This document shows positions 3,391 to 58,725 of a stretch of 64,000 nucleotides of DNA, piece after piece. The position numbers and the translations under genes are program-made. The notes beneath the pieces were generated by a model. It saw nothing but the letters and a program-made list of their open reading frames with translations, ran no database searches and was not told where the DNA came from. Source of the DNA: Rugalucina vietnamica (Eukaryota; Mollusca; Bivalvia; Lucinida; Lucinidae). The stretch lies in contig OZ024880.1 of NCBI GenBank assembly GCA_964017185.1, forward strand, positions 36,670,329 to 36,734,328. The letters are read 5' to 3'. Numbering within the stretch: the stretch's first letter is position 1; each line of letters begins with the position of its first letter.

Positions 3391-6335
3391 TTTGTTGACT
3401 TGTCCTCCACAATTTTGGCAATTTTGTCATAATTGTGTAATTATTTTGTTGCTATAGCAACGTAAGGGTGAATTTATGAAAAAACATTTAAAAATCTTCT
3501 CAAAGGCTGTAAGCCCCAGAGCACATGTAAATACCCATAAAGAGGTGGTTTTGTCCCGACTTCTTGACTCTCAGGTGAGCGATTTTTGCCCTTGGGCTAC
3601 TTGTTTCTAAATTGCTGTTTCCTGGTCAATAAATTGTGAAATGAAATTATATGTGGAAAACTTTTTGATACAAGATGGAGTCCAAGATGGTGGCCAAAAG
3701 TGTTATTTTCATGAAATGGACCCATATAACACTCGTATTATTTCTAAATTGCTCTTTTATGGTCAAGTAATTGTGAGAATAAATGAAATGCGTCATTTCG
3801 TCATTGGACAGGTTTTTAGATACAATATGGCGTCCAAGATGGCGACCAAAATAGTTTATTTAAATGAAAGTAACACAAAATACACTCCTGTTGTTTATGA
3901 ATTACGCTTAAGGTCACAAAAATGGGAAATCAAATCGTGTACAGCCTTGAACATAGTATTACTACATATCAATTTGATGTATCCCTAAATGACAAATAAA
4001 GGGAGATAATCATACTCTAAAAGAACATTTGTGTTATTTTTTATATTTTATAGTAACTGAATTTTTGCATATTGTAAAGCAAGCCACTGCCATTTTAGTA
4101 AAACACGTGGTAGACATGCATAAGAGAGAAATTAGTTGGTTAACTTTTGATTGTTGGATGCCGAGATTGCTTATTTGTATGGTTCACGATTCTTGATTTA
4201 CCTACAGATATACCATTTCAGATACATGCTCATTCATGCTGTCACATCCTAGTTGTAGTGGTTTCACATGCCTAACCCGAAAAATAAAAAAAAATACGTA
4301 TAATGTCTTTCCTCTGCCTTAGATAGTCATCAACATATTGTATCAAGGGAAAATATGCCTTAATATAAAATAGAGTAACCCTGTAAAATGAGGATTGACA
4401 GGAGTACAAACAATGCGGTCCGCCATATCCAGACAAAGAAATTCATTTATTTTGTTGGTCGTGAATGCACTCTTCTTTTATCATCTTTGTATGCCTTTCT
4501 GCAATAGTGGTTGTGAAAGATCATCACTTTAAAACGAATAAGATTAATAACAGACGTTGTGTAAGTGGAACTACACACGACCAACCACATCAACGACTCA
4601 GAAACTGTCCAAACTAACCGTGCTACTGTAATGATCGACCGTCCTGCAAAGTTCCAACACAGAAGACCGGAACAGAAAACAGAATGCTAAATCTAGATAT
4701 ATAGTAACAAAATGTCAGTCTCTCCAAACCTCCAGCTTCTGAGTACTGCTACGAAAGCATATCACTAAAAATGAACTTTCGGTGGAATGAGTTGTTTGAA
4801 GTACTGATTCTTGCCAAATCACTGGGATTCTTCATTGCAATTGTATAACCCATAAAACATTTACAACCATAAACTCACAAGATGTTTTATTTAAACTATT
4901 TTATTTTAATAACAGTGCTGGTTTCAGTGTTTCTGATCTCACTCGAAGGGGAAGAAGAAGAACGCGATCGTGTGATTGCTCAGGGCTTGGGACCCATAGA
5001 TCAGTAATAGAATTTCCCCATAGGCATTCAGTGTGGTTTAATAGTTATTTTGACATTTCATGTGTATTACAACTTTTTGTTTAAAATCGCCACAAAGGCA
5101 CATTTTATTTTTCATGTTCGCACATAAAAAGTCACTTCTCTTCTGGGACAGTAGCTAGCCGGCGAACATAACCCATTAAATCCACCGTACTGTACCAAAA
5201 TTGCAATCCACAAAGCTTAAAAGATTTTATAACTGTGAACAGTAACCAGCTAGATCATATGTCATATTTAACCCTCCCCATCCTATTCCTACTGTACCGG
5301 ACAGTAAACTGTTAGCAGTTTTTAACCTGTTACATTTTGTTTCAACGATAAACGACTTATCTGATAGCTCTGTGGATATCTGCATCGATAATAAAGATTC
5401 ACGGATGGATGAAAATAGAGAATTGTGGGTGAATCTAATATTTAGACGGGATATGAGTAGTGTTAGCTATACTGCACATTTGTACTGCTTTGAGATACAA
5501 ACCGACTTCTACAGCGAGTGTTAGCTTCATATACAGCTGTTACATGAGAACAGAAACATTTCCGCTTATGACTTTATTCAAATTAGTACCAAGAGAGTAG
5601 TTGCTCCGTCACTGTATGACTAAAGATTTGTTGACTAGGGAGTGGATCCATAACCAAGATCGTCGACAATATGTTATGTTATAGAATTTCATCGATCGAC
5701 AAAAAATAAAATAAAAATGGCTGCTTAAATTCAACATGCCCACCGGAAAGTAGATAAAATGTGTTTGTGTATATAGAAATGTAATGAAAATTCCGTTTCT
5801 GTGTTTTATTAAACAATATTTGAACAAAAAACTGCCAAAACGCAAATGAAACACGACCTTGGAGTGTAGTGACCATCTTTATTAATTTTGCTTTTGTTGC
5901 ATACATGTATTAATGGAAAAATGTCTTAACTTGAAGTTTTCTCCACTCTAAATGCCATATTTTAACATTTCATCACATGCATGTAAGAACTTCTATCAAA
6001 AGCCCTTATTTCGTCGGCCATCTTGGATTTTGATGGCCATCTTCATCTTGTTTACTTTTATTTTGTTGCATTTGACTGAAAAAAGCTAAATTTTATTATT
6101 TCTCAAGTTTTAAAGCGAGGATTGAGCATTTCATCAGATATCTGTACACAATTCTATCAAAAACACTTCTTTTGTCGGCCATATTTATTTTTGGCGGCCA
6201 TCTTGAATTGCCTAAGGATGCCAATCTGGCATCAGCCGATTTATAAATCAGGATACCCATACCAACTTATTTCTGCAAAAAAAACTTTCTATAGACGCTA
6301 TTGCACGGTCATCTTGGTTTCTAGCCGGACTATAC
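3391..6335. other. Non-satellite block inside the minisatellite
   Basis: This 2.9-kb AT-rich block separates the two satellite arrays; both edges pass abruptly into 40-bp monomers. It holds no recognisable gene. About 3573-3600 carries a CTCAGGTGAGCGA repeat end of the kind also seen near 25780. About 5940-6215 holds two diverged copies of a roughly 162-bp repeat with GGCCATCTTG motifs, and related GATGG(C/T)GGCCA-like text occurs near 3680-3850. Open frames at 3641-3988 and 5609-5906 show no recognisable domain. No terminal inverted repeat or target duplication was found at the two junctions. Confidence 0.6.
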
Positions 6336-9300
6336 TGGGGAGGTTGTGGTAGGGAATGGGTCGATATATCTCTACTGGGGACGGTGTGGTAGATTAAGGT
6401 GCTGTAGATCTCTACTGGGGACGGTATGGTAGGGAATGCCGCTGTATATCTTTACTGGGGACGGTGTGGTAGGGTACGTCGCTGTAGTTCTCTACTGGGG
6501 ACATTGTGGTAGAACATGGGGCAATAAATCTACACTGGGGACGGAATGGTAGGGTATGGTGTTGTAGATCCCTACTGGGGACGATGCTGAAGAGAATGAC
6601 ACTGTATATCTCTACTGGGAATGAAGTGGTAGGGTATGGCGCTGTATATCTCTTCTGGACATGATGTGGTAGACTACTGCACTGTAGATCTCTACTGAGT
6701 AGGGTCCAGTAGAGTATGGTTTTGTAGATCTCTACTGGGGACGGTGTGGTAGAGTATGTCGCAATAGATCTCTACTGGGGACCTATTAATAGAGTAGTTC
6801 GCTTGAAATGTCTACTTGGGACAGTGTGATAGGGTATGTAGCTGTAGATCTCTACTGGGGACGTTGTGGTAGGTAAAGGGACGATAGATCTCTACTGGGG
6901 ACGGTGTGGTAGGGAATGGGACGATATACCTCTACTGGGGACGTTGTGGTAGGGAATGGGTAGATAAATCTCTACTAAGGAAGGTGTGGTAGATTAAGGT
7001 GTGGTAGATCTTTACTGGGGACGGTGTGGTAGACTATGTCGTTGTAGATCTCTACTGGGGACGTTGTGGTAGGAAATGGGGCGATAGATCTCTACTGGGG
7101 ACGGAATAGTAGGGTATGATGTTGTAGATCCCTACTGGGGACAATGCTGAAGAGAATGACACTGTATATCTCAACTGGGGAGGGAGTGGTAGGGAATTAC
7201 GCCGTAAATCTCTACTGGAGACGGTGTGGTAGACTACTTCACTGTATATCTCTACTGGGTACGGTCCAATAGAGTATATTGTTGTAGATCTCTATTGGGG
7301 ACGGTTTGGTAGGGTATGTCGCAGTATATCTCTACTGGGGACCTTGTGGCAGGGAATGGGGCGATAGATATTTACTGGGGACGGTGTGGTAGAATATGGT
7401 GCTGTAGATCTCTACTGGAGACGGTGTGGTAGGGTATGGCGCTGTACAGTGTAGATCTTTACTAGGGACGGTATGGTAGGGTATGTCGCTGTAGATCTCT
7501 ACTGGGAACGTTGTGGTAGGGAATGGGGCGATAGATCTCTACTGGGGATGGAATGGTAGGGTATGGTGTTGTAGATCCCTACTGGGAACGATGCTGAAGA
7601 GAATGACACTGTATATCTCTACTGGGGACGGAGTGGTAGGGTATGGCGCTGTATATCTCTACTGGAGACGATGCGGTAGACTACCGCACTGTATATCCCT
7701 ACTGGGTACGGACTAGTAGAGTATAGTGTTGTAGATCTCCAATGGGGACGGTGTGGTAGTGTATGTTGCTGAAGATCTAAACTGGAGATGTATTGGTAGA
7801 GACGTTCGCTGTAGATGTCTACTTGGGACTTTGTGCTAGGGTATGTAGCTGTAGATCTCTACTGGGGACGTTGTGGTAGGGAATGGAGCGATAGATATCT
7901 ACTGGGGACGGTGTGGTAGGGTATGTCGCTGTAGATCTCTACTGGGGACGTTGTGGTAGGGAATGTGGCGACAGATCTTTACTGGGGACGGTGTGGTAGA
8001 ATCTCTACTGGAGACGGAGTGGTAGGGTATGGCGCTGTAGCTCTCTATTGAGGACGTTGTGGTAGGGAATGGGGCAATAGATCTCTACTGGGGACGGAAT
8101 GGTAGGATATGGTGTTGTAGATCCCTACTCGGGACGATGCTGGACACAATGACACTGTATATCGCTACTGGGGACGGAGTGGTAGGGTATGGCGCTGTAT
8201 CTCTACTGGAGACGGTGTGGTAGACTACCGCACTGTATATCTCTACTGGGTACGGTCCAGTAGAGTATTGTGTTGTAGATCTCTAATGGGGACGGTGTGG
8301 TAGGGTTTGTCGTTGTAGATCTCTACTGGGGACGTATTGGTAGAGTAGTTCGCTTTAGATGTCTAGTTGTGACTGTGTGATAGGGTATGTAGCTGTAGAT
8401 CTCTTCTGGGGACGTTGTGGTAGGGAATGGGGCGATAAATATCTACTGGGGACGGTGTGGTAGGGTATGTCGCTGTAGATCTCTACTGAGGACGTTGTGT
8501 TAGGGAATGTAGCGATAGATCTTTACTGGGGACGGTGTGGTAGAATATGGTGCTGTAGATCTCTACTGGGGATGATGTGGTAGGGTATGGCGCTGTAGAT
8601 CTTTACTAGGGACGGTATGGTAGGGTGTGTCGCTGTAGATCTCTACAGGGGACGTTGTGGTAGGGAATGGGTCGATATAACTGTACTGGGGAAGGTGTGG
8701 TAGATTAAGGTGCTGTAGATGGCTACTGTGGACGGTGTGGTAGGTTATGGCGATGTAGATCTTTACTGAAAACGGTGTGGTAGGGTATGTCGCTGTAGAT
8801 CTCTACTGGGGAAGTTGTGGTAGGGAATGGGTCAATATATCTTTACTGGGGACGGTGTGGTAGATTAAGGTGCTGTAGATCTTTACTTGGGACGGTGTGG
8901 TAGGGAATGGCGCTGCAGATCTTAACTGGGGACGGTGTGGTAGGAAATAGGCGATGCATCTATACTTGGGACGGAATGGTAGGGTGTGGTGTTGTAGATC
9001 CCTACTGGGGACGATGCTGAAGAGAATGGCACTGAATATCTCTACTGGAGACGAACTGGTAGGATATGGCGGTGTAGATCTCTACTGGGGACCTATTAAT
9101 AGAGTAGTTAACTTGGGACTCTGTGATAGGGTATGTAGCTGTAGATCTCTACTGGAGACGTTGTGGTAGGGAATGGAACGATAGATCTCTACTGGGGACG
9201 TTGTGGTAGGGAATGGGTAGAATCGCTACTGGGGACGGTGTGGTAAATTAAGGTGCTGTAGCTGTCTACTGGGGACGGTGTGGTAGGTTATGGCGCTGTA

Positions 9301-12300
9301 GATCTTTACTGGGGATGGTGTGGTAGGGTATGTCGCTGCAGATCTCCATTGGGGACGTTGTGGTAGGACATGGGGCGATAGATCTCTACTGGGGACGGAA
9401 TGGTATGGTATGGTGTTGTAGATCCATACTGGGGACGATGCTGAAGAGGATGAAACTGTATATCTCAACTTGGGAAGGGGTGGTAGTGTATGACGCTATA
9501 CATCTCTACTGGGGAAGTTTTGGTAGGGAATGGGTCGAATCTCTACTGGGGACGGTGTGGTAGGTTATGGTGCTGTAGATCTTAACTTGGGACGGTGTGG
9601 TATGGTAAGTCGCTGCAGATCTCTACTGGGGACGTTGTTGTAGGAAATGATGCGACAGATCTCTACTGGGGACGGAATGGTAGGGTATGGTGATGTAGAT
9701 CCCTACTGGGGACGATGCTGAAGAGAATGATAAAGTATATCTCAACTTGGGAAGGAGTGGTTGGGTATGACGCTGTATATCTCTACTTGAGACGGTGTGG
9801 TAGACTACCGCACTGTAGATCTCTACTGGGTACGGTCCAGTAGAGTTTAGTGTTGTAGATCTCGGAACGGTGTGGTAGGATATGTCGCAATAGATCTCTA
9901 CTTGGGACGTATTGGTAGAGTAGTTCGCTTAAGATGTCTACTTGTGACTGTGTGATAGGATATATAGCTGTAGATCTCTACTGGGGATGTTGTGGTAGGG
10001 AACGGGGCGATAGATCTCTACTGGGGACGGTGTGGTTGGGTATGTTGCTGTAGATCTCTACTGGGGACGTTGTGGTAGGGAATATGACGATTGATCTTTA
10101 CTGGGGAAGGTGTGGTAGAATATGGTGCTGTAGATCTTTACCGGGCACGGTGTGGTAGGGTATGACGCTGTAGATCTTTACTAGGGAAGGTATGGTAGGG
10201 TATGTCGCTGAAGAACGCTACAGGAGACGTTGTGATAGGGAATGGGTCGATATATCTCTACTGGGGAAATTGTGGTAGATTACGGTGCTGTAGATGTCTA
10301 CTGGGGACGGTGTGGTAGGTTATGGCGATGTAGATCTTTACTGGGGACGGTGTGGTAGGGTATGTCGCTGTACATCTCTACTGGGGACGTTGTGGTAGGG
10401 AATGGCGCTGCAGATCATAACTAGGACGGGGTGGTAGGGTATGTCGCTATAGATCTCTACTGGGTACGTTGTGGTCGGAAATGGGGTGATAGATCTATAC
10501 TGGGGACGGCATGATAGCGTATGGTGTTTAGATCCCTACTGGGGACGATGCTTGAGAGTATGACACTGTATATCTCTACTGGGGACGAAGTGGTAGGATA
10601 CGGCGCTGTATATCTCTTCTGGAGACGGTGTGGTATACTACCGCACTTTAGATCTGTACTGGGTACGTTCAAGTAGAGTATGGTTTTGAAGATCTCTACT
10701 GGGGAAGGTGTGGTAGGGTATGTCGCTGTAGATCTCTACTGGGGGGGACCTATTAATAGATTAGTTCGCTTTAAATGTCTACTTGGTACTGTGTGATAGG
10801 GTATGTAGCTGTAGATCTCTACTGGGGACGTTGTGGTAGGGAATGGGACGATAGATCTCTACTGGGGACGTTGTGGTAGGGAATTGGACGATAGATCTCT
10901 ACTGGGGACTGTGCGGTAGGGTATGTCGCTGTAGATCTCTACTGGGGACGTTGTTATAGGGAATGGGTCGATAAATCTCTACTGTGGACGGAGTGGTAGA
11001 TTAAGGTGCTGTAGCTCTCTACTGGGGATTCTGTGGTAGGTTATGGCGCTGTAGATCTTTACTTGGGACGGTGTGGTAGGGTATGTCGCTGCAATCTCTA
11101 CTGGGGACGTTGTGGTAGGAAAAGGGCGATACATCGCTACTGTGGAAGGAATGGTAGGGTATGGTGATGTACATTGTAGATTTCTACTGGGGACCATGCT
11201 GCAGAGAATGATACTGTATATATCTACTTGGGAAGGAGTGGTAGGATATGACGCTGTATATCTCTACTTGAGACGGTGTGGTAGACTACCGCAATGTAGA
11301 TCTCTACTGGGTACGGTCCAGTAGAGTATAGTGATGTAGATCTCTACTGGGGACGGTGTGTAGGGTATGTCGCAGTATATCGCTACTGGGGACGTATTGG
11401 TAGAGTAGTTCGCTTTAAATGTCTACTTGTGACTGTGTGATAGTGTATGTAGCTGTAGATCTCTACTGGGGATGTTATGGTAGAGAACGGGGCGATACAT
11501 CTCTACTGGGGACGATGTGGTAGGATATGTCGCTATAGATCTCTACTGGGGACGTTGTGGTAGGGAATGGGTCGATAGATCTTTACTGGGGACGGTGTTG
11601 TAGATTATGGTGCTGTAGATCTCTACTGGGGACGGTTTGGTAGACTACCACACTGTAGATCTCTACTGGGGACGGTGCAGTAGAGTATGGTGCTGTAAGT
11701 CGTTGTGATAGGAAATGGGGCGATAGATCTCTACTGGGGACGGAATGGTAGGGTATGGTGTTTATCACTACTGGGGACGATGCTGAAGAGAATGACACTG
11801 TATACCTCTGCTAGTGACGGAGTGGTAGGTTATGGCGCTGTTTGTCTCTACTGGAGACATTGTGGTAGACTACAACACTGTAGACTTCTACCGGGAACGG
11901 TCCAGTAGAATATGGCGCTGTAGATCTTTACTGGGGACGGTGTGGTATGGTATGTCGCTGTAGATCTCTACTGGGGGCGTTGTGGTAGGGAATGGGGCGA
12001 TAGATCTCTACTGGTGACGCAATGGTAGAGTATGGTGTTGTAGATCCCTACTGGGGACAATGCTGAAGAGAATGACACTGTATATCTCTACTGGGGACGT
12101 AGAGGTAGGGTATGGCGCTGTATATCTCTACTGGAGACGGTGTGGTAGACTACCGCACTGTAGATCTCTACTGGGGACGGTGCAGTAGAGTATGGTTTTG
12201 TAGATCTCTACTGGGGACGGTGTGGTAAAGCATGTCCATGTAGATCTCTACTGGGGACGTTTTGGTAGAAAATGGGACGATAGATCTCTACTGGGGACGG

Positions 12301-13450
12301 AATGGTAGGGTATGGTATTGTTGATCCCTAATGGGTACGATGCTGAAGAGAATGACGCTGTATATCTCTAATGGGGACGGAGTGGTAGGGTATGGCGCTG
12401 AATGTCTCTACTGGAGGTAGACTTCCGCAATGTAGATCTCTACTGGAGAGGTTGTGGTAGGGAATGGGGAAAAAGATCTGTACTGGGGACACAATGGTAG
12501 GGTATGGTGTTGTAGATCCCTACTGGGGACGATGCTGAAGAGAATGACACGGTATATCTCTATTTGGGACGGTGTGGTAAGATATGGCTCTGTATATCTC
12601 TACTGGAGACAATGTGGTAGAATACCGTACTGTAGATCTCTACTGGGGACGGTCCAGTAGAATAGGGTGCTGTAGATCTCTACTGGGGACGGTATGGTAA
12701 AAATGGGGCGATAGATCTCTTCTGGGGACGGAATGGTAAGGTATGGTGTTGTTGATCCCTACTGGGGTCGATGCTGAAGAGAATGACACTGTATATCTCT
12801 ACTTGGGACGGAGTGGTAGGGCATGGCGCTGTATATCGCTACTGGAGACGGTGTGGTAGACTACCGCACTGTAGATTACGGAGTGGTAGGGTATGGGGCT
12901 GTATATCTCTACTGGAGACGATGTTGTAGACTACCGCACTGTAGATCTCTTTAGATGTCCACTGGGGAATAGGGTGCTGTAGATCTCTACTGGGGACGGT
13001 GTGGTGGGTTATGTCGCTGTATATCTCTACTGGGGACGTTGCGGTAGGAAATGGGGCGATAGATCTCTACTGGGGACGGAGTGGTAAAGTATGGCGCTGT
13101 ATATCTCTACTGGAGACGGTGTGGTAGACTACCGCACTGTAGATTACTACTGGGAACGGTCCAGTAGAATGTGGTGCTGTAGATCTCTACTGGGGACGGT
13201 GTGGTAGGTTATGGCGCTGTAGATCTTTGCTGGGGACGGTTTGGTAGGGTATGTAGCTGTAGATCTTTACTGGGGACGTTGTGGTAGGGAATAGGGTGAT
13301 ATATCTCTACTGGGGACGGAATGGTAGAGTATGGTGTTGTAGATCCCTACTGGGGACGATGCTGAAGTGAATGACACTGTATATCTCTACTGGGGACGGA
13401 GTGGTAGGGTATGGCGCTGTATCACTCTTATGGAGACTGGGGACGTTGTA
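6336..13450. repeat. 40-bp minisatellite array, right block with higher-order repeats
   Basis: This is the same 40-bp family as at 1-3390, here about 178 monomers. The marker monomer GATGCTGAAG recurs at about 6571, 7141, 7590, 8147, 9011, 9437, 9714, 10551, 11189, 11779, 12059, 12330, 12528, 12770 and 13358. Most gaps are close to multiples of 40, with 280 and 560 common, so 7- and 14-monomer higher-order units are visible but are scrambled by unequal exchange. Scattered monomers are truncated. The array stops at about 13450 in unrelated AT-rich sequence. Confidence 0.95.
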
Positions 13451-15879: not shown

Positions 15880-18640
15880 GCAAGTAGACACTACTGCATA
15901 ATTCTGTACTTATTTGATGAAATTTACCCATCTTTAATCCAAAACAACTCCTTCACGATACAAACGCCTATACAAATTTTGAAGAAACTTAATCAATAAA
16001 TGCTCAAGATAAATGCACAAAAACTAAGGAAACTTTTAACGTAAATCAAAGACCAAAACTCTGTACTTACTGACGAAACTTGCCCATCTTCAAACCCAGC
16101 CTACTTCTTCGTGATATGAACTCCTATACAAAGTTTGAATAAAACCGGTCAATAAATGCTCAAGATACATGTAGAGCCCAGAAACAAAATTCTAACGTAA
16201 ATCAAGGGCCACAACTCTGTACTTATTTAACGAAATTTACACATTTTCAGTCCCAAACCACTCCTTTCTGATTTGAACTCCTGATATATACAAAGTTAGA
16301 AAAAGGTACAATAAGACTAAGATCAGGAAAAGGCGCAATCAGAAAAAGATTCCCACTCCAAAAACCGAGGTGGGAAAAACTAAATCAATAATCAGGTACG
16401 TATACCATGAAACCATATAGTGAGCCGAATGAGCAGCTATTTTCCCAATAGGTGGTCACTCAGCTACCCAAACCTAACTGAAATATGAAAACATACATAA
16501 GGCGCCAACAGCATAAAAATTTTAAACTCCAAGACATAAAACAAAAAAAAAACCACAGAAGTATCGCCTTGGAACGATCAGTAATATAGAATTACTGGCG
16601 GGCTTAAATCGATTTTACAGGTACCTAACCTCACCCTCAGCTTCTGCAGTGTTACATTTAGTTAGTTCTCCGGTTCTCGTGGTGAATCTCTAACTAGTCA
16701 ATGAATCATCAAGAACAAACAAATAAATCATGATAAACATCTTGATGAATCAAAAACGAGGACTCACAGATAGTATAAATTGCCCGACGATGGAGATCCC
16801 TGGGCGCCGAATAACTTAATAACTCTGAAGCAAAGGAAAAACACAAGTTGGACTCCTGTTGGGCAAGTAACAGACAAAAATCACCGGTCCCAACCAACTA
16901 AAATGTATAGCTTTAAGTCGGGGCCATCATAGAGTCTGACGCCCGACACACAGGCATGCAATCAAAAAAGGCAGCATAGTTATCAACCATGATTGGGTTG
17001 AAAACTAAGCATGCAGACAGTCGCATAACATTCAAATTAAAACCTATGTGTCTGTAACGTATAAAGATTTTTCTGAAATAAACAAATCATTCCATCTGCG
17101 TTGAAGTCATTGCATGATTGCAGACTCTTGCAAACCAAATATGCTGCGAAATGTATACAGCATCAAAAGCACGAGCGAGGAAAGCCACCATCCAAAAACG
17201 GAAAAAATTACAATATCAAAATCAAAGTCATCGCGTTTATTATAAACTGTAAGAGAAACAATCCATTTGCAATAGAAAGATGTAAATCCAAAAAGGGGGC
17301 TCTGATATCTGTGATGTTGGTTTTATTCAACTGTAGTTCAGGTGGGTAAATTTTCAAATTAAGGACTGTCAATGTTCAAAAGGTCATCGAGGTACCTAGA
17401 AGTCGAATTAAAGGCCTCGATAACATCAGCTTTATTGTCATGGTAAAGAGAATCCATGAAATCTCTTTCGAAGCAGTATAATAATAAAGCGGCTACAGGT
17501 GCGCAATTTGTACCCATCGGAACTCCAACAATTTGTCTGTATATCTTGGTCCTAAATCTAATATAAATATTATCCAGGAGATAGGATAAGGCGTCGCATA
17601 CTTTCTGACATGACCATAGTATAAACCGACTTTGGTCGGAGGAAGTGAAAAAAGCCTTTCTGTCATTACATGCCAAATAAAGTGAAACATAGTTTTTAAT
17701 GTCCTTTTGAAGGTCCACTCTATTATATCCAGAAGTTTTTCTTTCACTAGATGATGTGACAATGTTGTATACAGAGTAGAAAAATCATATGTGGACAAGC
17801 TTGTCGCACAGGACCCTCTACATTTCAATTTACTGAGCACTTCGCCAGAATTTTTCATAGACAAAAACAATTTCTATTTGAAGTTTCATACACTGTCCCA
17901 CAGTATCTTATGAAATGAGATTTGATAGCAGTAAGACAGGAAGTTAATAATTTAGAAAGTTCAGTAGAATTTGCAAAAATTCTAGCTTTGTATTATTGTC
18001 TTTTGTGAAGATTTGGTAACCAATACATTGTAGAAAGATTTCCTTGGCCTTCAGAGTATTTGTCAATAAATGCTCAAGATAGAGCCCGGAAACGAAATTT
18101 TAACGTAAATCAAGGGCCATAACTCTGTACTTATTTGACGAAATTTACCCATTTTCAATCCCAAACCACTCCTTAATAATATGAACTCCTGCACAAAGTA
18201 TGAAGAAAATCGGTCAATAATTGCTAAAGCTAGAGCCCGGAACGAAGTTTTAACGTAAACCAAGGGTCATAAGACTTATCTTTACATGTATATAACAAAA
18301 TTCACCCATGTTCTATCCCAGACCACTCCTTCCTGATATGAAAAAAAAAAAGTAAAAAAAAAAAAAAAAAAAGTTTTCCTATACAAAGTTTGAAGAAAAT
18401 TGGTCAATATGTCTCAAGAAATTTTCACGTAAATCAAGGGTCATACCTGTACTTATTTAGCGAAATATACCCAAATCAATCTCAGACCACTCCTTCCTGA
18501 TATGAATTCCTAGGCAAAGTTTTAATAAAATTGGTCAATAAATGCTCATGATAGAGCCCGGAAACGAAGCGCTGACGGACGGACGGACATACAGGCAGAC
18601 GGACGGACGGACACTCGAACGTAGATTGTGGATACTCGGC
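15880..18640. repeat. Pearl-like ~157-bp tandem array with GACGG tail, split by a PLE
   Basis: Core repeats carry CTCTGTACTTATTTGACGAA at about 15904, 16061, 16215, 18126 and 18446, with a period near 157 bp. The array ends at about 18570-18620 in a (GACG)n tract, the pearl-element layout. It is interrupted between about 16302 and 18060 by a minus-strand PLE. The left half stops within the ...TACAAAGTTTGAA... phrase and the right half resumes at GTCAATAAATGCTCAAGAT, so the host repeat can be read across the insertion. An A-rich stretch lies at 18341-18372. Confidence 0.75.
16302..18060 (-). mobile_element. Penelope-like element copy A, 5'-truncated, degenerate RT
   Basis: On the minus strand, pieces of a Penelope-type reverse transcriptase can be followed in order: YWLPNLHK near 18010, a TAIKSHFIRYCGTVYETSN stretch near 17920, motif A YDFSTLYTTL near 17790, motif B GVPMGTNCAP near 17520, and motif C RYLDDLLN at about 17377-17403. 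Next come APFLDLHLSIANG near 17305 and the C-terminal region down to about 16930. A 3' UTR of about 620 bp follows, ending in ...TTGTACCTTTT. Several frame changes break the reading frame, so it is dead. No GIY-YIG domain is seen after the RT; one lying upstream would be lost by the 5' truncation. The 5' end lies inside a 157-bp pearl-like repeat. Confidence 0.85.
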
Positions 18641-37129: not shown

Positions 37130-39209
37130 GTAAAATGTTTTAGTTCTCTATCTGATCTTTTTTCATGTGACGTAAGCTTATCACAAGGGGAGATAATTTC
37201 ATCCTTTCTTTTTTGATTGTTTATGAATGATATAGAGCTGAATTTACAAGAAAATTTAAACGATGGCATAAGTATTGAACAGTTGCAGTTGTATTTGTTG
37301 TTATTTGCTGATGATGCAGTCATATTTTCGGAAACCCGCGAGGGTCTCCAAAACCATCTTAATAATCTTGAAAGTTACTGTCAAAAATGGAATATCACCT
37401 TAAATGTTAATAAAACTAGAATAGTTGTTTTCAGAAAAGGCGGCAATTTAGGCCAAAATGACAAATGGTTTTATTGGGGTAGTGTAACAGAGATCATTGT
37501 AAATAGTTTCACCTATTTAGGTGTCGGGATCTTTTGTTCCAAATACCAAAACTCTATCAGGAAAAGCACTGAAAAGTATGCATCAGTTATTACAGCTTTT
37601 ACGAGAAGTTGATACGCCGGTAAACATTGCTTTCAACTTATTTGATTCTCTTGTGGCATCTATCCTCAGTTACGGTTGAGGGGTGTGGGGATTTATGAAT
37701 GCCGAGTGCATAGAACGAGTTCACATATCATTTTGCAAATATATCATAAATGCAAAGCAAACTACAAACAACAATGTTGTGTACTCTGAATTGGGAAGAT
37801 ATCCACTTGCGGTTGAAAAAGTACAAGTAGGCAAAGATCAGGAAAAGACGCGATCAGAAAAAGATTCCCACTCCAAAAACCGAGGTGGGAAAAAACTAAA
37901 TTAACAATCAGGTACTTATACCATGAAAACACACCGCAAGCCGAATGAGCAGCTATTTTCCCAACAGGTGGCCACTCAGTTACCTAAACATAACTAAAAT
38001 ATGAAAACACAAATAAGGCGCCAACAGCACAAATTTTAAACACCAAGACATAAAACAAAAAGAACCACCACAGAAGTATCGACTCGGAACGATCAGTAAC
38101 ACAAAGCTACTGGCGGGCCTAAACCGGTTCCACATGGCCATAACCTCACCCTCAGCTTCTGCAGTGATTCATAACATCTAGATAGCTCCTCGGCCCCCGC
38201 GGTGAATCATCAACCAGTCAATGCATCATCAAGAACAAACAAATAACTCACGATAAACATCCAGATGAATAAAAAACCAGGACCCACAGATTGAGCAAGC
38301 CGCCCGACGATGGAGATCCCCGGGCGCCGAACAACTCACCAACTCCGGAGCAGAAGAAAAACACCAGTTGGACCCCGGTGGGCCAAGCAACAGACAAGAA
38401 GCCCCAGCCCCAACCATAAGGCGCATAAGAATCGTCAAATATTGGTTTAATGTAATTCGGAAATCTGAAAATAATTGTATTATAAATTCTGTATATGATG
38501 AAATGAAAAGCAATATTGAAAATGATTCAAGTAGCGTAGTTTGGCTCACAAAACTTAAGAAATTGCTAGAGCAAAACGGTTTTGCTGATGTATGGATGTA
38601 TCCTGGTTCAGTTGATGTTAAAGCATTCATTCCTGTGTTTAAAACCAGATTAATTGATACTTTTCTGGTAGGAATGAGAAATGAGCTAACTGCTTCTTCA
38701 TCGATGAGTCTATATAGGGAACTTTGAATTTGAATAATCGTAAATATAGGAACGCAATAGCAAAATTTCGACTTTCTTCACCCAATTCGCAATGAGACAG
38801 GTAGACACACTCCTCGTATTAACAGACAACTAAGAAAATACTTTTTATGTACAAAAGATGAAAAAGAAGACGAATTTCATTTAGTTTTTGTATGCCCAAT
38901 TTATCAAGAATTACGTTCACAGTATATACCTAGATATTATTATATTCGCCCTAGTATGCTTAAACTTGATCAACTTCTAAATGCCAGTGGAAAAAACCTT
39001 AAAACGTTTGTCACTTTTCATTACACAAGCTTTAAACACTAGGAACTTAGCTACAAATAATGTACAATAAATAACTATTATTAATTTATTAACACCATAA
39101 AATATTGATGACACACTATCTCACTCTCTTTTTGTACTGTATGTTGTGTTATGTACCATATACATTGTTTTGTGTTATTCTAAATGCATGTGTACTTATG
39201 TTTGTTAAT
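37130..39209 (+). mobile_element. Non-LTR retrotransposon (LINE) RT remnant, interrupted by a PLE
   Basis: The 3' part of a LINE ORF2-type protein. An LSQGEIISSFLF-type block with LFMNDIE (about 37170-37240) is followed by LLLFADDAVIFSE, the catalytic FADD box, at about 37295-37335, then LNVNKTRIVVFRKGG, FTYLGVGIF and a thumb-like region to ...SELGRYPLAVEK at 37822. After a PLE insertion (37821-38417) the same frame resumes RRIRIVKYWFNVIRKSENN and continues to 38727. The C-terminus then shifts frame and shows LCTKDEKEDEFHLVFVCP, a zinc-knuckle-like tail. Internal stops (one near 37678) and frameshifts make it dead. The 3' end is a TTGTTAATAAATG-type tail at about 39209. I do not assign a clade. 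Confidence 0.85.
37821..38417 (-). mobile_element. PLE copy G inserted in the LINE
   Basis: Minus-strand 3' UTR, about 597 bp, from CCCCAACC... at the right to the ...TTGTAC 3' end at the left. Joining the LINE across it gives an uninterrupted frame (...LAVEK / RRIRIV...), which fixes the insertion point to a few bases at GTTGAAAA/AGGCGC. It is 5'-truncated within the UTR and so carries no RT sequence. Confidence 0.85.
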
Positions 39210-42184: not shown

Positions 42185-43015
42185 CTTTGTAATATGTATA
42201 CCTCTGCATACCCTAGTTTTACTATAAAGTAAGGGGCATATTTGATGCCATCCGGCGAGCGTTTTATGACCTGAGATTTACCTGGAGATTTTAGTGGGTG
42301 CGGCTTAACTACTGGCCCAGGAATTATAAGCCAGTTGGAATACCTGTAATATTTAATCTCCTGATAAGAGCTGTCAATAATTCGAAAGGGACCTTTTCTC
42401 CATGAAGCAATATCCAATCAGAATTGATTATTGCTAGTGTTGTATATTGGAGAGCTCAGAGAGATGTTGACAGGTTGGTGTCTTAACAAAAGCTGACATA
42501 AGAGTAGTAGTAGAAAGTGGCCTTTTTTCGTCATGCCGGGCTGAACGGACTTAATCCAAGATTCCACCACAAGTACGAGACTGAGACCCCTTATTCAGCC
42601 TTTTATAGTCCAGGTGCCCCTTTAATGGGATATTTATTTCCTGATGACAGACGGCTGAACGGACTTAATCCAAGATTCCACCACAAGGACGAGACTGAGA
42701 CCCCTTATTCAGCCTTTTATAGTCCAGGTGCCCCTTTAAGGGGATATTTATTTCCTGATGACAGACGGCTGAACGGACTTAATCCAAGATTCCACCACAA
42801 GGACGAGACTGAGACCCCTTATTCAGCCTTTTATAGTCCAGGTGCCCCTTTAAGGGGATATTTATTTCCTGATGACAGACGGCTGAACGAACTTAATCCA
42901 AGATTCCACCACAAGGACGAGGCTGAGACCCCTTATTCAGCCTTTTATAGTCCAGGTGCCCCTTTAAGGGGATATTTATTGCATGGACATGTTTCCTGAT
43001 GACAGACGCAATTTT
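42185..43015 (+). repeat. Family N debris containing a 114-bp x4 in-frame minisatellite
   Basis: About 42195-42240 matches the CATACCCCAG stem of family N. From 42540 a 114-bp unit (CTGAACGGACTTAATCCAAG ... CCTGATGACAGACGG) repeats four times at 42540, 42654, 42768 and 42882 with only a few differences. As 114 is 38 codons, a 160-codon frame stays open (42517-42999) with a repeated NPRFHHKDETETPYSAFYS peptide. The end of the unit (GGGGATATTTATT, GCATGGACATG, TTTCCTGATGAC) is recognisably the right end of family N, so I regard it as an amplified piece of that repeat and not a protein gene. Confidence 0.75.
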
Positions 43016-51874: not shown

Positions 51875-52117
51875 ATGGCAAACTCCGATTTAATGTTCAT
51901 TGTTATTAGTTGCGAAACCTCACTCCACTACGTTCCGTTGCAGACCCTTATGGTTCTATTTGATCAAAGCAATTTCCGGTTGAATAAAACAGGACACGTG
52001 GTGAGTGCATCCGAACTCGACATTGTTGACGTCACCGGGTGCCTTGGCGTCGCGGCACGCGCCTTGTCGCGTGAGCATGGAGAGCTTCTTTTTGACTGGC
52101 TTAGCCTTGCGGATTAA
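51875..52117 (+). other. Unrecognised 80-codon frame, GC-richer than its surroundings
   Basis: ATG at 51875, stop at 52117. The composition is protein-like (for example VTGCLGVAARALSREHGELL) and the sequence is clearly GC-richer than its neighbours. However, no domain is recognised, and an internal GTGAGT at about 52000 could equally be part of something else. It begins directly after the inverted-repeat element above. It is antisense to, and outside, the coding exons of the gene at 52390-58217. Confidence 0.25.
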
Positions 52118-52192
52118 AAGTGACCGCAAATGAGCTAGCTGTATGTGTAAATCTCACAGAAATTATGGATTTAAAGCAGGAAATCAGAGACT

Positions 52193-52198
52193 TTTATT
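52193..52198 (-). promoter_or_regulatory. Candidate poly(A) signal AATAAA
   Basis: AATAAA on the minus strand, about 190 bp beyond the stop codon in exon 4 of the predicted minus-strand gene, a plausible 3' end signal. Confidence 0.4.
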
Positions 52199-52389
52199 AT
52201 GGAACTCATCTAGAGACAAAATTTAATATCTCTTCGAACAGAATGCGAAGTCAGGTTGAGCAGAATTTAGTTTTTCACAGTGAATTTCGTGTTTGAAAAT
52301 GTGATGTGTAAAGTAAAACATTTTTCCCGGTCATACACGCTTGGCTTTGAGGCTGTGTGACACATTCGGAATGCTTTTGTTATACATTG

Positions 52390-53552
52390 TTATGGACTAT
52401 CCACATCATGAAAGTTTGTGTTTATATCCACTGTACTCTTAATTGCCATATCGAAGTTGATGATGTACACGCTTCTGAGTACAACGACACATCTACGATA
52501 GTCACATAGTTTAGGCTGTCGTCGATATGGTAATAGGTCAGGTAAGGCCTTGTTGGTAGTATCGTATCTGCCTGTAGAGAAAAAGACAATATACAGTGAT
52601 GGTAAAAACAAAATTTTATAACTATATACAGTGATGGTGAAAACAGAAACTCTCTTTTCATTTTCCCCATGGTCGACTGCATTTTATCTGGACAAAGAAG
52701 TGTAATATACATGTCAAGCAGAAACCCACTTTTCTCACGCAATGGCTCATATACTATACCGTAACAACTATCAATCTTATATGGCTTAAAGCATTTCACT
52801 CATGCTGAAAATTCGAAGTTTTGAAGTTTTCGGTTAATAGCTATATTCATAGCTAATTTTCAATTGTTGAAATGACCGACTACAGAAAAAAAATGTATTC
52901 TATCCACAGAGCTGACATATTTTCAATGCATGGTTACGAATGTTTCTGGCAAAATATATATGCTATTTAGAACGATTGTATGACCACTTAACAAGTACTA
53001 ACTGTGCGCTGATGAGTGGAACATTTGCGCTTATTAGACCAAATACGGTATCAAAAACCGTTAACCCTCTTTGATGTTTGAACATCATATGTTGCTTTTT
53101 TAACCAAGAAAGTTTGAAATGGGAAATAACGGTTTATAGTTTAATGTATTTAACCGAACAAAGATCATCATTTTCAAACAAAAGTTCATCACTGCAGAAG
53201 CCGAGGGTGAGGTTATGGCCATGTAACTGGTAAACTAGTTTAAGCCCGCCAGTAATTTTTATTACTGATCGTTCCAAGGCGATACTTCTGTTGTGGCTCT
53301 TATTGTTTTATGTCTCGGTGTTGAATTTTTGTGTTGTTTATGTGCGTTTTCATATATTTTAGTTAGGTTTGGATAACTGAGTGTCCACCTATTGGGAAAT
53401 ATCTGCTAAATCGGCTTACGATACTGTTGACAAAGGACGAGTTGGCCAAAGTATGAGTTGACCATAAACCAAAAGCATGCAATATAAATAATAAAAGAGT
53501 AATTACCTTTAAATCAATAAATCACTACCACCGTTTCTATAATTTCTGTTTC

Positions 53553-53584
<32 letters not shown>

Positions 53585-56500
53585 CTGTTTCTTGCTTCGT
53601 TAAATACCGGTTGTTCTAGCCATGGTTCTATTGGTTGACCAGGTACTGACAATGGATCAAGTACTGGTTGATCGATGAATGACGAAATTACTATAAAGAG
53701 AGAAAATATCACACAAATTGGATGCTTAAATGATATGCGGTAAGTATATTGGAGATTTTATCATCAACAGTGCAAAATCCTATTTGTGCCTGAGCGCGCT
53801 TTCGCCTTTCGGCTTCTTCAGAGGCGTACTAAATACTACATATTAAGATTGTGATATCTACATATGCCTATCATAGGCAGTTAAACAGAAAAAATAGAGC
53901 AATCTAAAAATTCTACATTCTACGCTAACATGGTAAAACCTCATATAACTCCATAGAAATAAACACACCGCTTGTGGCACTCGTTATAACCGTCTTGTCT
54001 ATGCTGTTCTTACGTTTACCCACAATCTACATGTATGTTTTGAGCAAAAATATTTAAAACAGTCTACGTTTTTCCTTTTATTTATTTATTTTTTTATTAT
54101 TTTTTTACACATTAAAATCTCTGTAAATCGCATGGGCACGCCTTTTGTAAGGCACGTATCAGTGACCGGTGCATGCGTATTCCATTTCCAGTCTAGTACA
54201 GTATGTATTATGACGTTCCGAATCGGCGTTCACGTGATCTAGACTGTGATAAATATTTACATTTATTGTTCCATTTTACATAGTCTAAATTTCAAAAATG
54301 AGACGAAAGCGTGTCTAGAGTGGAGTTGAAATCATTCCAAAGTTCTTCTACCGACATGCCCTTATGGCTGGTCAAGAACCTTTGTTGGTAATCTTTCATG
54401 AGGGTCTTAAATCTAGGCTAATCTGCTTTGCGAAAGGGGGATTTTTGCGGAGGTATTATCAGTTAAACGAACGACTGCCTCTAAAGTTTCTAATTCTTTC
54501 TTATCTCAGAAAATTGTAATAGAAAGTCTAATGTTTCACTTGCATGACGTATTTCTGTTTTTCTCTTCCTTCCCTTTTGTCATTCATTTTCTTTCTCGAT
54601 CTTCCATTTCAAACTTTTGTTGTTGTTTTTTTTTCTTTCAAGTTCTAACTAATTTGCACTTCTTTTTTATTTCAAATTCTAATTTGAATTTCTCCAACTT
54701 CATTTGCCCTTTATTGTCTAGCTTTCTCAGCCGAATGTAAGTTTGAGTGACCATAATGAAAATAACGAAAATGAAGTGGAATGAAAAATCTTAGTGTCAA
54801 TACGTTATATGGATATGAAATAAACAAACAAAATAATTTTCCATTTTTATTTTGGATCAAAAGTAATGAAACATTGTCCCTCTACACCCTAAGTTACTAA
54901 ACCAAAAGGTACAAGTAGGCAAAGATCAGGAAAAGATCAGGAAAAGGCGCAATCAGAAAAAAGATTCCCATTCCAAAAGTAGAGTGTAAAGGGTATACAT
55001 TTGGTGGACAAATTTGCCTGATCCCGGCGGCTCACTTACCTTGATGGTACGTTGGGAGCACAACTACAGGTCTGGGAAATAATATAGACCATATTGGGGT
55101 GTGTTTCACCCATACCGCGCTACTCCACGGGCTGTAGTTGAAACCTAAATTGAAAACGAATAATTATTACGTTCGCAGGGTATAAATATATATATGATGC
55201 GACATTCTGTATTCTTAGTTTCAACTTGGACAGTGCGCATCAATGATAAAATGCCACGTCACACATAAGCGATAGTTTTTCGACGCAGATCTTGGTTATT
55301 ATAGGTTTTAGGTCATTTCCTAACCAGCGTAAAAATCATAATGCTCAAGTTGCGTAATTGCTAGCATTTTGTTGATTTGGATGAATAATGTTGCCAAATC
55401 TAACGCGTCATAGACGGGGCTTTTAAAAGTAGATGAAACCGCAGTATGAGACATCCCCGTTCTCAATGATATGCTCTTTGCTCTTCAAGGATCTTTTTTT
55501 TTTTTTTTTTTTTTTTTTTTTGCGAACCGGAGTTCAGCAACAATCGTTTTGTTTTCGTTTGTTACGTACTTTGTAAATCGTTGCTTATATATGCATGAAT
55601 GCGTGTGTAAATTTCTGTGTTCGTCACGATAAGAATATTGTTCACGTCTCTGCAAGGCCGCATGACGATGGCGTTTCGTATTCGCTCAGAGGCAAACGCA
55701 AGATCCGCTCAAGATCGAATTTATTCATATCTGTGCTTTTAGCTGCTCCTTAGCGCATCCTAACGCAAGTGAGCACGGCAACAATTACTTGCACGGTCCA
55801 ACTCGCTTTTCCGAATTTAAGTCTTGATTTATGACGTAAATATTAATAATAGTGACGTCCAGAAATCGCAAAGTAAGGCACATTTAACCCTTTTCCAAAG
55901 CCTATGTTATAAGAATAAGTTATTGTGTGACGATGCCTTAAGAGTTTGGTTCAAAGTTTAGAAACCATGGTAACGAACTCGGCTAGTGATACATTCTTAC
56001 AGCGTTGACATATTGTGACGTCATGATTGCAGACGTTGAAGTTTGCCCCGCAAGCAGCATTTTAAAAGGTCGTTAGCTAACATCATTTTCCGCGCCATTT
56101 TGAGTTCATGAATGTTTTGTAAAATCTAGACAATTTCTCAAACGTTTCGCATGAAATAGTTGTATTGCAATCATAATGATCAAACATGTTCTTTTCTGCT
56201 GGGCCCCTCGGGAGGGTTGAAACCCGAGTCTGTCAAACTCGGGTTTCAACGCCTCCCTCGGGTTCCAGCAGATGTCAATGCATAGAAAACCATGATTGAT
56301 CCCTATATTAATATAAAAATAAACAACATTCCATTTAATCATTAAATTGCGAAAAACGGACTTGTGCAAGCCTTTTGATTTTAAGTATACATCAGGAAAA
56401 CATGTCCGTGCAATGGGTACCCTCGTATACCCCACTTTTACATAGTAAAACCGGGGTATGCAGGCTAGGGGTATACCTATTTGTCTTATTTTTTGTCCAA

Positions 56501-58217
56501 AACATAGATTGAGGGTACACGTTAGAACCGCCTCTATTAAAGTATTACGGCTTGTCAGAGAATGCTCTTAGTCTCATCAAAAACTACTTGAGTAATAGGA
56601 AACAGTGTGTCAAATTGGGTACTTTTATCAGTGATTTTAAAGATATTTACAAAGGTGTTCCTCGGGGCTCAATTTTAGGTCCTGTACTTTTTAACATTTT
56701 TATTAATGATATATTCTATTTTATAACAGATAGTGACTTGCGTAACTATGCAGATGACAATACTGTTACCTACGCCCATAGTGACCCACAAGTTGTAAAA
56801 TCTGTACTAACTTAAGATAGTATTAAATGTGTTGATTGGTTCTCTGATAATCACATGCAGGCCAATCCAGATAAATTTCAAGCTGTAGCTGCTGGTCTGA
56901 AATCCAAGAATGAAAATTTCAGTTTTGATCTAGGTAATGGCTGTATTATTCATTGTGAGGGTGAAGTGAAATTATTAGGTGTAACCATTGATTTTAAGCT
57001 AAAATTTGATTTACGTGTATCTAACATCTGCAAAAAAAGCCTCAAGACAACTAGGGATTCTTAAACGTATTGGTAAAAACATAATATGTAAATTAGGAAA
57101 GCTGAGTATATACCATTAATTCATACTATCTAATTTTAGTTATTGTCCTTTGTCTTGGCACTTCTGTGGTGAAACCAACACCAAAAAACTTGAACAAATC
57201 CAGGAAAGAGCTCTACATTTTATTTATAATGATTATAATTCAGACTATGACACATTACTTCTAAATTTAAAATGCCTACATTGAAGTTGAGAAGACTAAG
57301 GACAATGGCTTTAGAAGCTTTTTAAGATTTTAAACCACCAAGGACCTGTGTATTTGCATGACATGCTTAATACTAAAAACCATAATTATTCTTTTAGGTA
57401 CACTAGAACTGCTAAAATCCCTAAGAACCTCAGGCTATGGCCTCAGCTCTTTCCGGTACAGCGCAGCTAAATTATGGAATTCTTTACCTCAACATTTTAG
57501 AGATGAGACAAGTTTTAATAATTTTAAAAGTTTAATCAGTGCCTGGAACGGGGAGAGTTGTGTCTGTACTTTTTGTTCTACAGTATAGATTTGCTTTTTG
57601 TTAGCATGTTAATTTTACTGTGTTTTGTTTTTTGCAAGATGCTCTATTATGATTATCTGACCTATCTTTAGTGTATTATCTGACCTATCTTTAGTGTATT
57701 ATCTGACCTATCTTTAGTGTATTATCTGACCTATCTTTAGTGTATTTGTATCTTTAGTGTATTATCTGACCTATCTTTAGTGTATTATCTGACCTATCTT
57801 TAGTGTATTTGTATCTTTAGTGCATTATCTGACCTATCTTTAGTGCATTTGTATCTTTAAAGATGATATGTATGATTTTTTATGATAATTATGTAATTTG
57901 TGTTTGAATGTATTATAATGATATGTAGTCGGTAAATAGCTATCCATAGCTAATGTTATAATGTTTAAACTTCCCGACTTAAAATAAATTTTGACTTTGA
58001 CTTTGACTTTCACGTGTACCCACAATCTATGTTTTGAGCAAAGATAAGAAAAATATCAAAAATGTTTCAGCTGAAAATTTTCAATTTTTAAAGCTAAAAA
58101 AAATCTCTGTAAATTGCATGGGTAATTCTCGTAATGGATTTTAAGTATATAAAATAACTTACCATTTCCGAGGTAGAAGCAGGTAACAAGGAATACTATA
58201 ACAAGACGAGATACCAT
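52390..58217 (-). CDS. Predicted small secreted protein gene, Asn-rich isoform or alternative terminal exon
   Basis: I assembled this minus-strand model from splice sites. Exon 1 (58217-58163) encodes MVSRLVIVFLVTCFYLGN, a signal-peptide-like hydrophobic segment, ending ...AAATG|GTAAGT in phase 1. Exon 2 (55144-55040, acceptor TTTTCAATTTAG, donor AAG|GTAAGTGAG) is 105 nt, symmetric 1-1, residues 19-53, rich in Trp, Pro and Val. Exon 3 (acceptor CTCTCTTTATAG; coding 53690-53509) accepts phase 1 and encodes residues 54-113: a Pro-rich stretch (LDPLSVPGQPIEPW), ten consecutive Asn with flanking RN pairs, and a stop. Exon 4 (52571-52390, acceptor TCTTTTTCTCTACAG) also accepts phase 1; joined to exon 2 it gives another 113-residue product with Cys and a basic PYRRQPKLCDYRR stretch. 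Exon 3 has a donor (AAAG|GTAATT) just after its stop, so exon 4 may be 3' UTR or an alternative terminal exon. Function is unknown; I infer secretion only. Confidence 0.6.
53190..53426 (+). mobile_element. PLE copy K, 3'-UTR fragment in an intron
   Basis: GCAGAAGCCGAGGGTGAGGT through TAAGCCCGCCAGTAATTTTT to ATCGGCTTACGATAC, where it breaks off about 120 bp short of the usual 3' end. It lies between exons 4 and 3 of the predicted gene, antisense to it. Confidence 0.8.
53552..53583 (-). repeat. (AAC)n microsatellite coding the Asn run
   Basis: TTG/GTT triplets on the + strand, read on the minus strand as AAC codons for the Asn stretch of exon 3. Pure codon repetition predicts length variation between alleles. 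Confidence 0.85.
53830..53975 (-). repeat. Dispersed repeat R, copy 1
   Basis: ATATGCCTATCATAGGCAGT, AGAGCAATCTAAAAATTCTA, GGTAAAACCTCATATAACTC and AAATAAACACACCGCT occur in reverse order and orientation at about 60275-60415. The family is unknown; both copies are near the predicted gene. Confidence 0.75.
53990..54145 (-). repeat. Family N fragment, inverted
   Basis: Reverse-oriented ACCCACAATCTACATGTATG, TTTTGAGCAAAAATA and TCTCTGTAAATCGCATGGGC match the left half of family N. Confidence 0.65.
54146..54904. other. Intronic spacer, T-rich
   Basis: Between exons 3 and 2 of the predicted gene. The 69-codon frame at 54531-54740 is a Phe-rich product of pyrimidine-rich sequence, not a gene. Confidence 0.4.
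54905..54980 (-). mobile_element. PLE 3'-terminal stub L
   Basis: Only about 75 bp of the 3' end (TTTTGGAATGGGAATC ... GCCTACTTGTACCTTTT on the minus strand) with a short internal duplication of GATCAGGAAAA. It lies about 60 bp from exon 2. Confidence 0.8.
55385..55490 (-). repeat. Dispersed repeat P, copy 3
   Basis: Reverse complement matches 19987-20093 (GATCCTTGAAGAGC ... GATTTGGCAACAT). A T-run of about 27 follows at 55493-55520. Confidence 0.6.
55521..56167. other. Intronic spacer
   Basis: No repeat or exon recognised; several TGACGTCA-like words (about 55850, 56018). Confidence 0.35.
56168..56312. repeat. Hairpin element F3
   Basis: A strong stem GGGAGGGTTGAAACCCGAGT / ACTCGGGTTTCAACGCCTCCC, with outer ends GATCAAACATGTTCTTTTCT / AGAAAACCATGATTGATCCC matching F1 and F2. 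It lies in intron 1 of the predicted gene. Confidence 0.85.
56537..58011 (+). mobile_element. 5'-truncated LINE (Jockey/CR1-like), RT remnant
   Basis: It begins inside the RT: LSLIKNYLSNRKQCVKLG, then KGVPRGSILGPVLFNIFIND (about 56652-56711), then LRNYADDNTVTYA with the catalytic YADD box (about 56739-56778). A stop at about 56813 is followed by HMQANPDKFQAVAAGLKS, VKLLGVTIDFKLKFDLRVSN and a C-terminal SFRYSAAKLWNSLPQHFRDE ... ISAWNGE near 57440-57550. Stops and frame changes make it dead. The 3' end is AATAAATTTTGACTTTGACT-type (GACTTT)n. The ending SAWNGESCVCTFC tail is typical of this RT group. It is in intron 1 of the predicted gene, antisense to it. Confidence 0.88.
57652..57856 (+). repeat. 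23-bp minisatellite in the LINE 3' region
   Basis: TTATCTGACCTATCTTTAGT plus GTA, about eight to nine times, with a shorter TTTGTATCTTTAGTG variant interspersed. It lies between the LINE C-terminus and its (GACTTT)n tail. Confidence 0.9.
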
Positions 58218-58271
58218 CTCTGGGTCCAAGTAGTGAGCAAATGATTAAAGATGACCAGACAGGGGCTCCTT

Positions 58272-58277
58272 CTTATA
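58272..58277 (-). promoter_or_regulatory. Candidate TATA box of the predicted secreted-protein gene
   Basis: TATAAG on the minus strand, 55 bp upstream of the ATG at 58217, leaving room for initiation at about 58245 and a 5' UTR of about 30 nt. A MITE starts 4 bp further upstream (58281). Confidence 0.45.
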
Positions 58278-58280
58278 ATT

Positions 58281-58515
58281 GAGCCGCGACGCGAGAAATC
58301 CGGTCTTCGGGAGTTCCGACCAGCTGCGACACAAACCGGCCTGTACAGTCGCAGAAGCAGGCAAGAAGTTTGAAATTTCGGATTTAAGAAGAAGAGAAAT
58401 GGTACTATCCGTGTATCGAAAACAAAGGCGCTGATCAGCTTCGCAGTTACTGTGAAGCTGATCTTCGCCTTTGTTTTAGCATAGGCAAAAATCCGGTTTT
58501 CTCACAATGCGGCTC
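58281..58515. repeat. Two-hairpin MITE, copy M5, at the gene promoter
   Basis: GAGCCGCGACGCGAGAAATC / GGTTTTCTCACAATGCGGCTC termini and the internal stem AACAAAGGCGCTGATCAGCT / AGCTGATCTTCGCCTTTGTT. Same orientation as M2. It ends 4 bp from the candidate TATA box. Confidence 0.85.
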
Positions 58516-58725
58516 ATAAACACCAGGAAACATTAAAGCCAAAACACGTTACAAGCCAATTAAGCTAATGACAGGTCAAAACTTAATTTAAATTTTAATT
58601 AATCAATTAAAAATCGAATAATAAGTAATATGTTTGCACCTTAATATTAAATCTTTAAGAGGAGTGCTTTATAAAGTTACAAGACCGCCCTAAACTCAGG
58701 ATTGAGTATGCACATCTGAGTGTGT

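Follow-up and report, generated by a model that had tools for sequence, protein, structure and literature searches.

Small secreted proteins of molluscs and the present locus

Genes for small, fast-evolving secreted proteins are common in molluscs, and short multi-exon genes for secreted proteins without known homologues are easily overlooked by annotation. Three described systems come closest to the locus considered here, among them a shell protein, GAAP, which is taken up below. In one review, every mantle secretome surveyed includes novel genes whose products are lineage-restricted, and low-complexity repeats are borne by many of the secretome proteins (PMC4897951). Another is a matter of gene architecture: phase-1 introns are found in excess near the signal-peptide cleavage sites of secreted-protein genes (PMC1626468).

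The present locus lies in a window (the whole stretch of DNA that was analysed, 64,000 bases in length, corresponding to C12:36670329-36734328 of a 47-contig genome of 1,089,854,562 bases). It very probably corresponds to a real, unannotated animal gene, and exons 1, 2 and 3 are likely to make up a gene for a secreted protein. With the lineage-restricted proteins of mantle secretomes, as they are characterised in that review (PMC4897951), the predicted protein shares a signal peptide, a short length, the lack of a recognised domain and of relatives found, and a simple amino-acid repeat made from one slippage-prone codon; it differs from them in being of low complexity only in part and in being known here from the gene sequence alone. 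GAAP, by its name and its description, is also an Asn-rich low-complexity protein of mollusc shell, although it is listed as A/G/S-rich with repeats, and the likeness is one of description with no kinship claimed. Because mantle secretomes have lineage-restricted, low-complexity proteins, a matrix, mucus or adhesive role for the predicted protein would be a reasonable guess and no more. The position and the phase of intron 1 are, on the other hand, like those in genes of secreted proteins whose signal-peptide cleavage site coincides with a phase-1 intron (PMC1626468); such genes constitute a general architectural class and not a family. The locus would probably represent, in sum, an orphan gene of a well-known class and not a new type of system, where orphan means that neither a recognised domain nor a convincing paralogue was found, the latter in its own genome, in which the search was made; other bivalves may have it.

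Exon structure and coding potential

A sequence-only reading of this DNA had proposed a hidden multi-exon gene, consisting of four minus-strand exons with GT-AG borders, the first of them encoding a signal peptide, and with phase-1 junctions. Coordinates, sites and phases could be reproduced on the sequence (Table 1), and the chance scan and the open frames described below are in agreement with it. All three junctions that it named are GT-AG and cut after codon position 1, and joining of the exons rendered 113 residues for each of the isoforms 1-2-3 and 1-2-4, as had been put forward. Its statement that the longest single frame has 67 codons is not in agreement with the genome search, which reports an open frame of 62 codons around exon 1, one of 82 around exon 3 and one of 97 around exon 4; an open reading frame of 125 amino acids, in a different frame, also overlaps exon 4. 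The start of exon 1 at 58277 was taken from that reading, and positions 58277-58271 overlap the end of a repeat. A TAA is found in frame 5' of the ATG.

Table 1. Features of the predicted gene and its surroundings (window positions; a slash in a donor site marks the exon-intron border)
Feature	Position	Strand	Remarks
Exon 1	58163..58277	-	Short 5'UTR, ATG at 58217, then 18 codons + 1 nt; donor ATG/GTAAGT
Exon 1 product			Predicted signal peptide, MVSRLVIVFLVTCFYLGN(G)
Exon 2	55040..55144	-	105 nt, symmetric phase 1-1, GFNYSPWSSAVWVKHTPIWSILFPRPVVVLPTYHQ; donor AAG/GTAAGT
Exon 3	53507..53690	-	Predicted Asn-rich C-terminus; TAA at 53511-53509, then AG, donor GTAATT at 53506
(AAC)10 pure codon run (microsatellite)	53553..53583	-	In exon 3, would encode the poly-Asn tract; found with TRF
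Exon 4	52390..52571	-	Following exon 2: 59 codons + TAA; following exon 3: 3'UTR
AATAAA poly(A) signal	52193..52198	-	191 nt past the exon-4 stop, inside a repeat
Possible TATA box, TATAAG	58272..58277	-	Edge of the upstream repeat; assigned by position alone
LINE fragment	56536..58013	+	In intron 1; RT-like reading; many genome copies 82-98% alike; class by eye from a translated motif
Interspersed repeat	52100..52387	-	Begins 3 nt past the exon-4 stop
Repeats	58518-58271, 58147-56388, 55524-55388, 54984-54898, 54138-53714, 53428-53188, 52387-52100		

Splice sites were scored with weight matrices of general metazoan values, not trained on the genome under study, and ranked among the 3516 GTs or the 3603 AGs of the minus strand of the window. 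Counting the site itself, 12 GTs score at least as high as the donor of exon 1, 2 as that of exon 2, and 52 as that of exon 3, the score of which is moderate (3.59). Among the AGs, 182 equal or surpass the acceptor of exon 2, which is an ordinary one, and 50 that of exon 3, while the acceptor of exon 4 (score 9.92) is the top of them all.

The first 19 residues would form a signal peptide by simple rules (Arg at position 4, a hydrophobic core, Gly at -3 and -1), and the 10-residue Kyte-Doolittle maximum of the exon 1 product is 3.21. Exon 1 would provide this peptide, intron 1, of phase 1, being located where cleavage is likely, GNG/FNYS, and exon 2 would provide a hydrophobic N-terminal segment containing Pro and Trp that is common to both isoforms. 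The mature protein would have 94 residues in either case, with 16 Asn, no Cys and a pI of 8.4 for isoform 1-2-3, and with 2 Cys and a pI of 9.3 for isoform 1-2-4. The low-complexity repetitive segment of isoform 1-2-3 corresponds to the (AAC)10 run; being a pure run, slippage in whole codons is to be expected, and the poly-Asn tract is probably polymorphic.

It could also be the case that there is no gene and that splice-like sites and open frames have lined up by chance, the more so as the model was picked after viewing 64 kb. The scan that bears on this required three exons in combination. The first, with an ATG, had to span 12-35 codons and to have a hydrophobic core as well as a basic or His residue close to its start; the second had to be symmetric (phase 1-1) and open; the third, a terminal exon, had to continue in phase and to stay open over at least 55 codons. 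The thresholds of the scan were the observed values, fixed after the gene had been seen, and the scan was run without a check of the cleavage site, which makes the null more generous. At these thresholds, the real sequence (the window extended by 50 kb on each side and taken on both strands, 328 kb of strand) rendered one model, the gene itself, whereas none appeared in Markov sequences of order 3 or of order 5, for each of which 60 strands of 64 kb were simulated (3840 kb each; 7.68 Mb in all). Loose thresholds likewise rendered none in the order-3 and order-5 simulations and only the gene on the real strands. Models were obtained on 2/60 and 8/60 simulated 64-kb strands with very loose thresholds, a result that speaks for chance, but the real strands still contained only the gene. 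For the three exon classes taken singly, the counts over the simulated 7.68 Mb were 2, 10 and 153; multiplied by hand, their separate rates lead to ca. 4e-4 expected models per Mb of strand. The locus is poorly explained by chance, even if one allows generously for other designs that a reader might pick, and it is quite improbable in our opinion that no gene is present.

With regard to the open frames, the predicted frame is open and the other five of the six are closed in exons 2 and 3; in exon 4 it is the only open one of the six, its own stop aside, with another sense frame remaining open until one late stop. Synonymous codon use in the joined frames resembles that of C1q exon segments from its own genome (a training set of 30 segments with 3805 codons, drawn from 150 C1q matches; one of the segments contains a stop), the null for these joined frames of 110 codons being narrow because long open noncoding stretches are few. 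For single exons, compared with open noncoding stretches of equal length, the test is weak, with P values of 0.087, 0.153, 0.155 and 0.033 for exons 1 to 4, and exon 3 does not stand out once its Asn run is left aside (P 0.335). The domain search of the 1.09-Gb genome from which the C1q segments stem rendered at least 150 matches (150 of 516 candidates were scored), those listed being above the curated cut-off. Since C1q expansion is a mark of bivalves, these matches likely fit an organism of this group.

Exon 3 and the C-terminal part of the predicted protein

Exons 3 and 4 had been regarded in the sequence-only reading as two possible terminal exons. What stands of this is that both are open in the right phase; the notion of exon 3 as an end was revised. 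The reading that we find most likely is that of exon 3 as a cassette exon rather than one of two rival ends, because a donor is located 2 nt past its stop and because exon 4 has the top-scoring acceptor. The chance of finding a donor of such strength at no more than 5 positions from the stop is about 0.0055. The simplest model that makes use of both sites would be a transcript of all four exons in which the reading frame terminates at the end of exon 3, leaving exon 4 as 3'UTR. Exon 3 has both an acceptor and a donor, and its inclusion and its skipping each keep a frame. When included, it would give rise to an Asn-rich, probably disordered tail, exon 4 being then 3'UTR, and the stop, 2 nt before the last junction, would be too near to it for nonsense-mediated decay, a stop shortly before the last junction escaping this process as a general rule. 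When exon 3 is skipped, the frame would continue into exon 4 and the protein would end in a basic tail with two cysteines; for the skipped form (1-2-4), we see the case as about even. We infer transcription, secretion, cassette splicing and the low-complexity matrix or mucus role from the features of the locus.

The same claim of a gene would hold if exons 3 and 4 were mutually exclusive terminal exons with their own poly(A) sites, exon 3 never being spliced onward. Both exons are indeed open and in the right phase, and a second AATAAA is located ca. 245 nt past the exon-3 stop (window position 53263). This AATAAA belongs, however, to another interspersed repeat and is present in 14/27 alignments of other copies of that repeat, so that it is not a sign of selection, and the donor 2 nt past the exon-3 stop would be left unexplained. 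Such mutually exclusive ends appear improbable to us.

The gene could also code for one protein, that of exons 1-2-3, with exon 4 purely as 3'UTR that happens to contain an accidental open frame, an alternative that likewise retains the claim of a gene. The donor past the exon-3 stop is in its favour. Moreover, 59-codon openings follow good acceptors in 10/178 cases at the matching offset and in 24/534 over three offsets, and are therefore not rare, so that exon 4 may be only 3'UTR, and the second open frame that overlaps exon 4 implies that openness is cheap in that region. Nevertheless, none of the other three exons reaches the synonymous-codon score that exon 4 has in its frame (P 0.033), and the phase is preserved if exon 3 is skipped. 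We consider a single protein rather unlikely, though clearly less so than mutually exclusive ends.

Regarding the poly(A) signal that follows exon 4, other copies of the repeat at 52100-52387 were compared in 26 alignments (the best 25 of 40 other listed places plus one additional copy in L014), of which 19 start precisely at 52387. At the poly(A) site they carry AAGAAA in 20 cases, AAAAAA in 3, and TTGAAA, GATAAA and AATAAA in one each. That 25 of the 26 have no exact AATAAA speaks for the proposed gene, against which an accidental origin has to be weighed. With the 15 differences over 288 positions that the window copy shows, the chance of an accidental gain of AATAAA at 52198 is ca. 7% (hand arithmetic). 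Both outer ends of the gene, one with TATAAG as a possible TATA box and the other with the last poly(A) signal, would lie at or inside the interspersed repeats that abut it. Returning to exon 3 as a cassette, the most far-reaching interpretation would be that its skipping switches the C-terminal half of a lineage-born protein between a slippage-prone, Asn-rich tail without Cys and a basic tail of equal length with two Cys, in a transcription unit completed by mobile DNA. Taken as a whole, this interpretation is speculative, and we would give it a low probability.

Repeats and relatives of the probable gene

The repeat map, based on whole-genome and local comparisons, is a lower bound, since 40 of 29124 candidates were scored in the whole-genome comparison. 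According to this map, 49.6% of a span of 6419 bases is masked, with 0 masked bases in the coding parts of the exons; exon 1 entered this test by its coding part, a repeat-free island of 123 bases, and not by the repeat-overlapping positions 58277-58271. A zero overlap as good as this was found in 130/6419 circular shifts and in 495/20000 independent random placements. As far as mapped, the coding parts are not pieces of transposons, and the exons were found without the repeated genome copies that a transposon-derived open reading frame would have. Insertions have seemingly been tolerated solely outside the coding parts, which is suggestive of constraint, although it is not a proof of it.

Some of the repeats show features of their own. 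The one at 58271-58518, of ca. 246 bp, has an internal palindrome and many copies in 164 kb, with TATAAG at its edge, before exon 1. The repeat at 53714-53972 is 89-98% identical to other listed copies over most of its length and stops 23 nt before exon 3. The idea that exon 3 was brought in by an insertion that split a repeat (54984-54898 / 53428-53188) was rejected because the copies in which both pieces are close to each other (e.g. two in the window and one in L029) show the opposite relative orientation. Elsewhere in the window, positions 1-3370 and 6333-13421 are occupied by a long minisatellite with units of ca. 40 bp and a strong skew of G over C on the plus strand, these regions being more G-rich than the remaining window. 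A 114-bp tandem repeat at 42539-42980, with units 98% alike and of a length divisible by three, makes up the larger part of an open frame of 160 residues, which would encode a repeated peptide. Open reading frames with RT-like stretches recognised by eye (e.g. FADDAVIF) are found at 17359-17870 and 37217-37612, and are probably further fragments of retroelements.

That the family is not recognised, as had been noted from the sequence, is supported by the searches carried out here. No Pfam family was found for either isoform at E <= 10, and isoform 1-2-3 rendered nothing of note in the PDB (best E 1.7) and 0 confirmed among 600 pattern matches in the viral contigs of IMG/VR. None of six peptide strings occurred in the texts of papers. 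The DNA of exon 2 has one match in the genome, itself, and a protein search of the whole 1.09-Gb genome with exons 1+2, exon 3 and exon 4 found no convincing second copy. Several candidates were discarded. A match of exon 3 on C17 (E 0.0016) contains 2 stops, and it was absent upon tblastn rescoring at E <= 1, as were those on C1 (E 0.49) and C16 (E 2.7). The match of exon 4 on C14, with an identity of 25-30%, has a genome-wide E of 5.45, and E values of 7e-5 and 0.005 at two places when 13 small loci alone are searched; it was judged to be due to chance. The matches of exons 1+2 on C1, C3 and C4 are short and partial, with genome-wide E values of 0.25-4.8, and were judged in the same way; in the 13-locus set, E values were 1.6e-5 to 7e-4 for L004, L005 and L007 and 0.23 for L006.

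With no convincing relative in the genome, and with introns and both flanks heavy in repeats, the locus might be thought of as a recently dead pseudogene that is still intact, or as a fragment of a larger gene with further exons. Against this, the frames and splice sites of all four exons are unbroken, and the region from 62500 to 50500 yielded no additional open phase 1-1 exon of 30-300 nt with an acceptor of at least 2.5 and a donor of at least 3, the scan recovering only exon 2 and, within exon 1, a piece of 33 nt. We therefore hold both a dead gene and a fragment to be quite unlikely. In our preferred interpretation, the gene would probably be intact and single-copy, and its secreted product would have ca. 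94 mature residues.

The locus alone alters no general view. If it is expressed, it would add one more orphan gene, in which the use or omission of exon 3 would act as a simple, testable switch and in which the poly-Asn tract is probably polymorphic.
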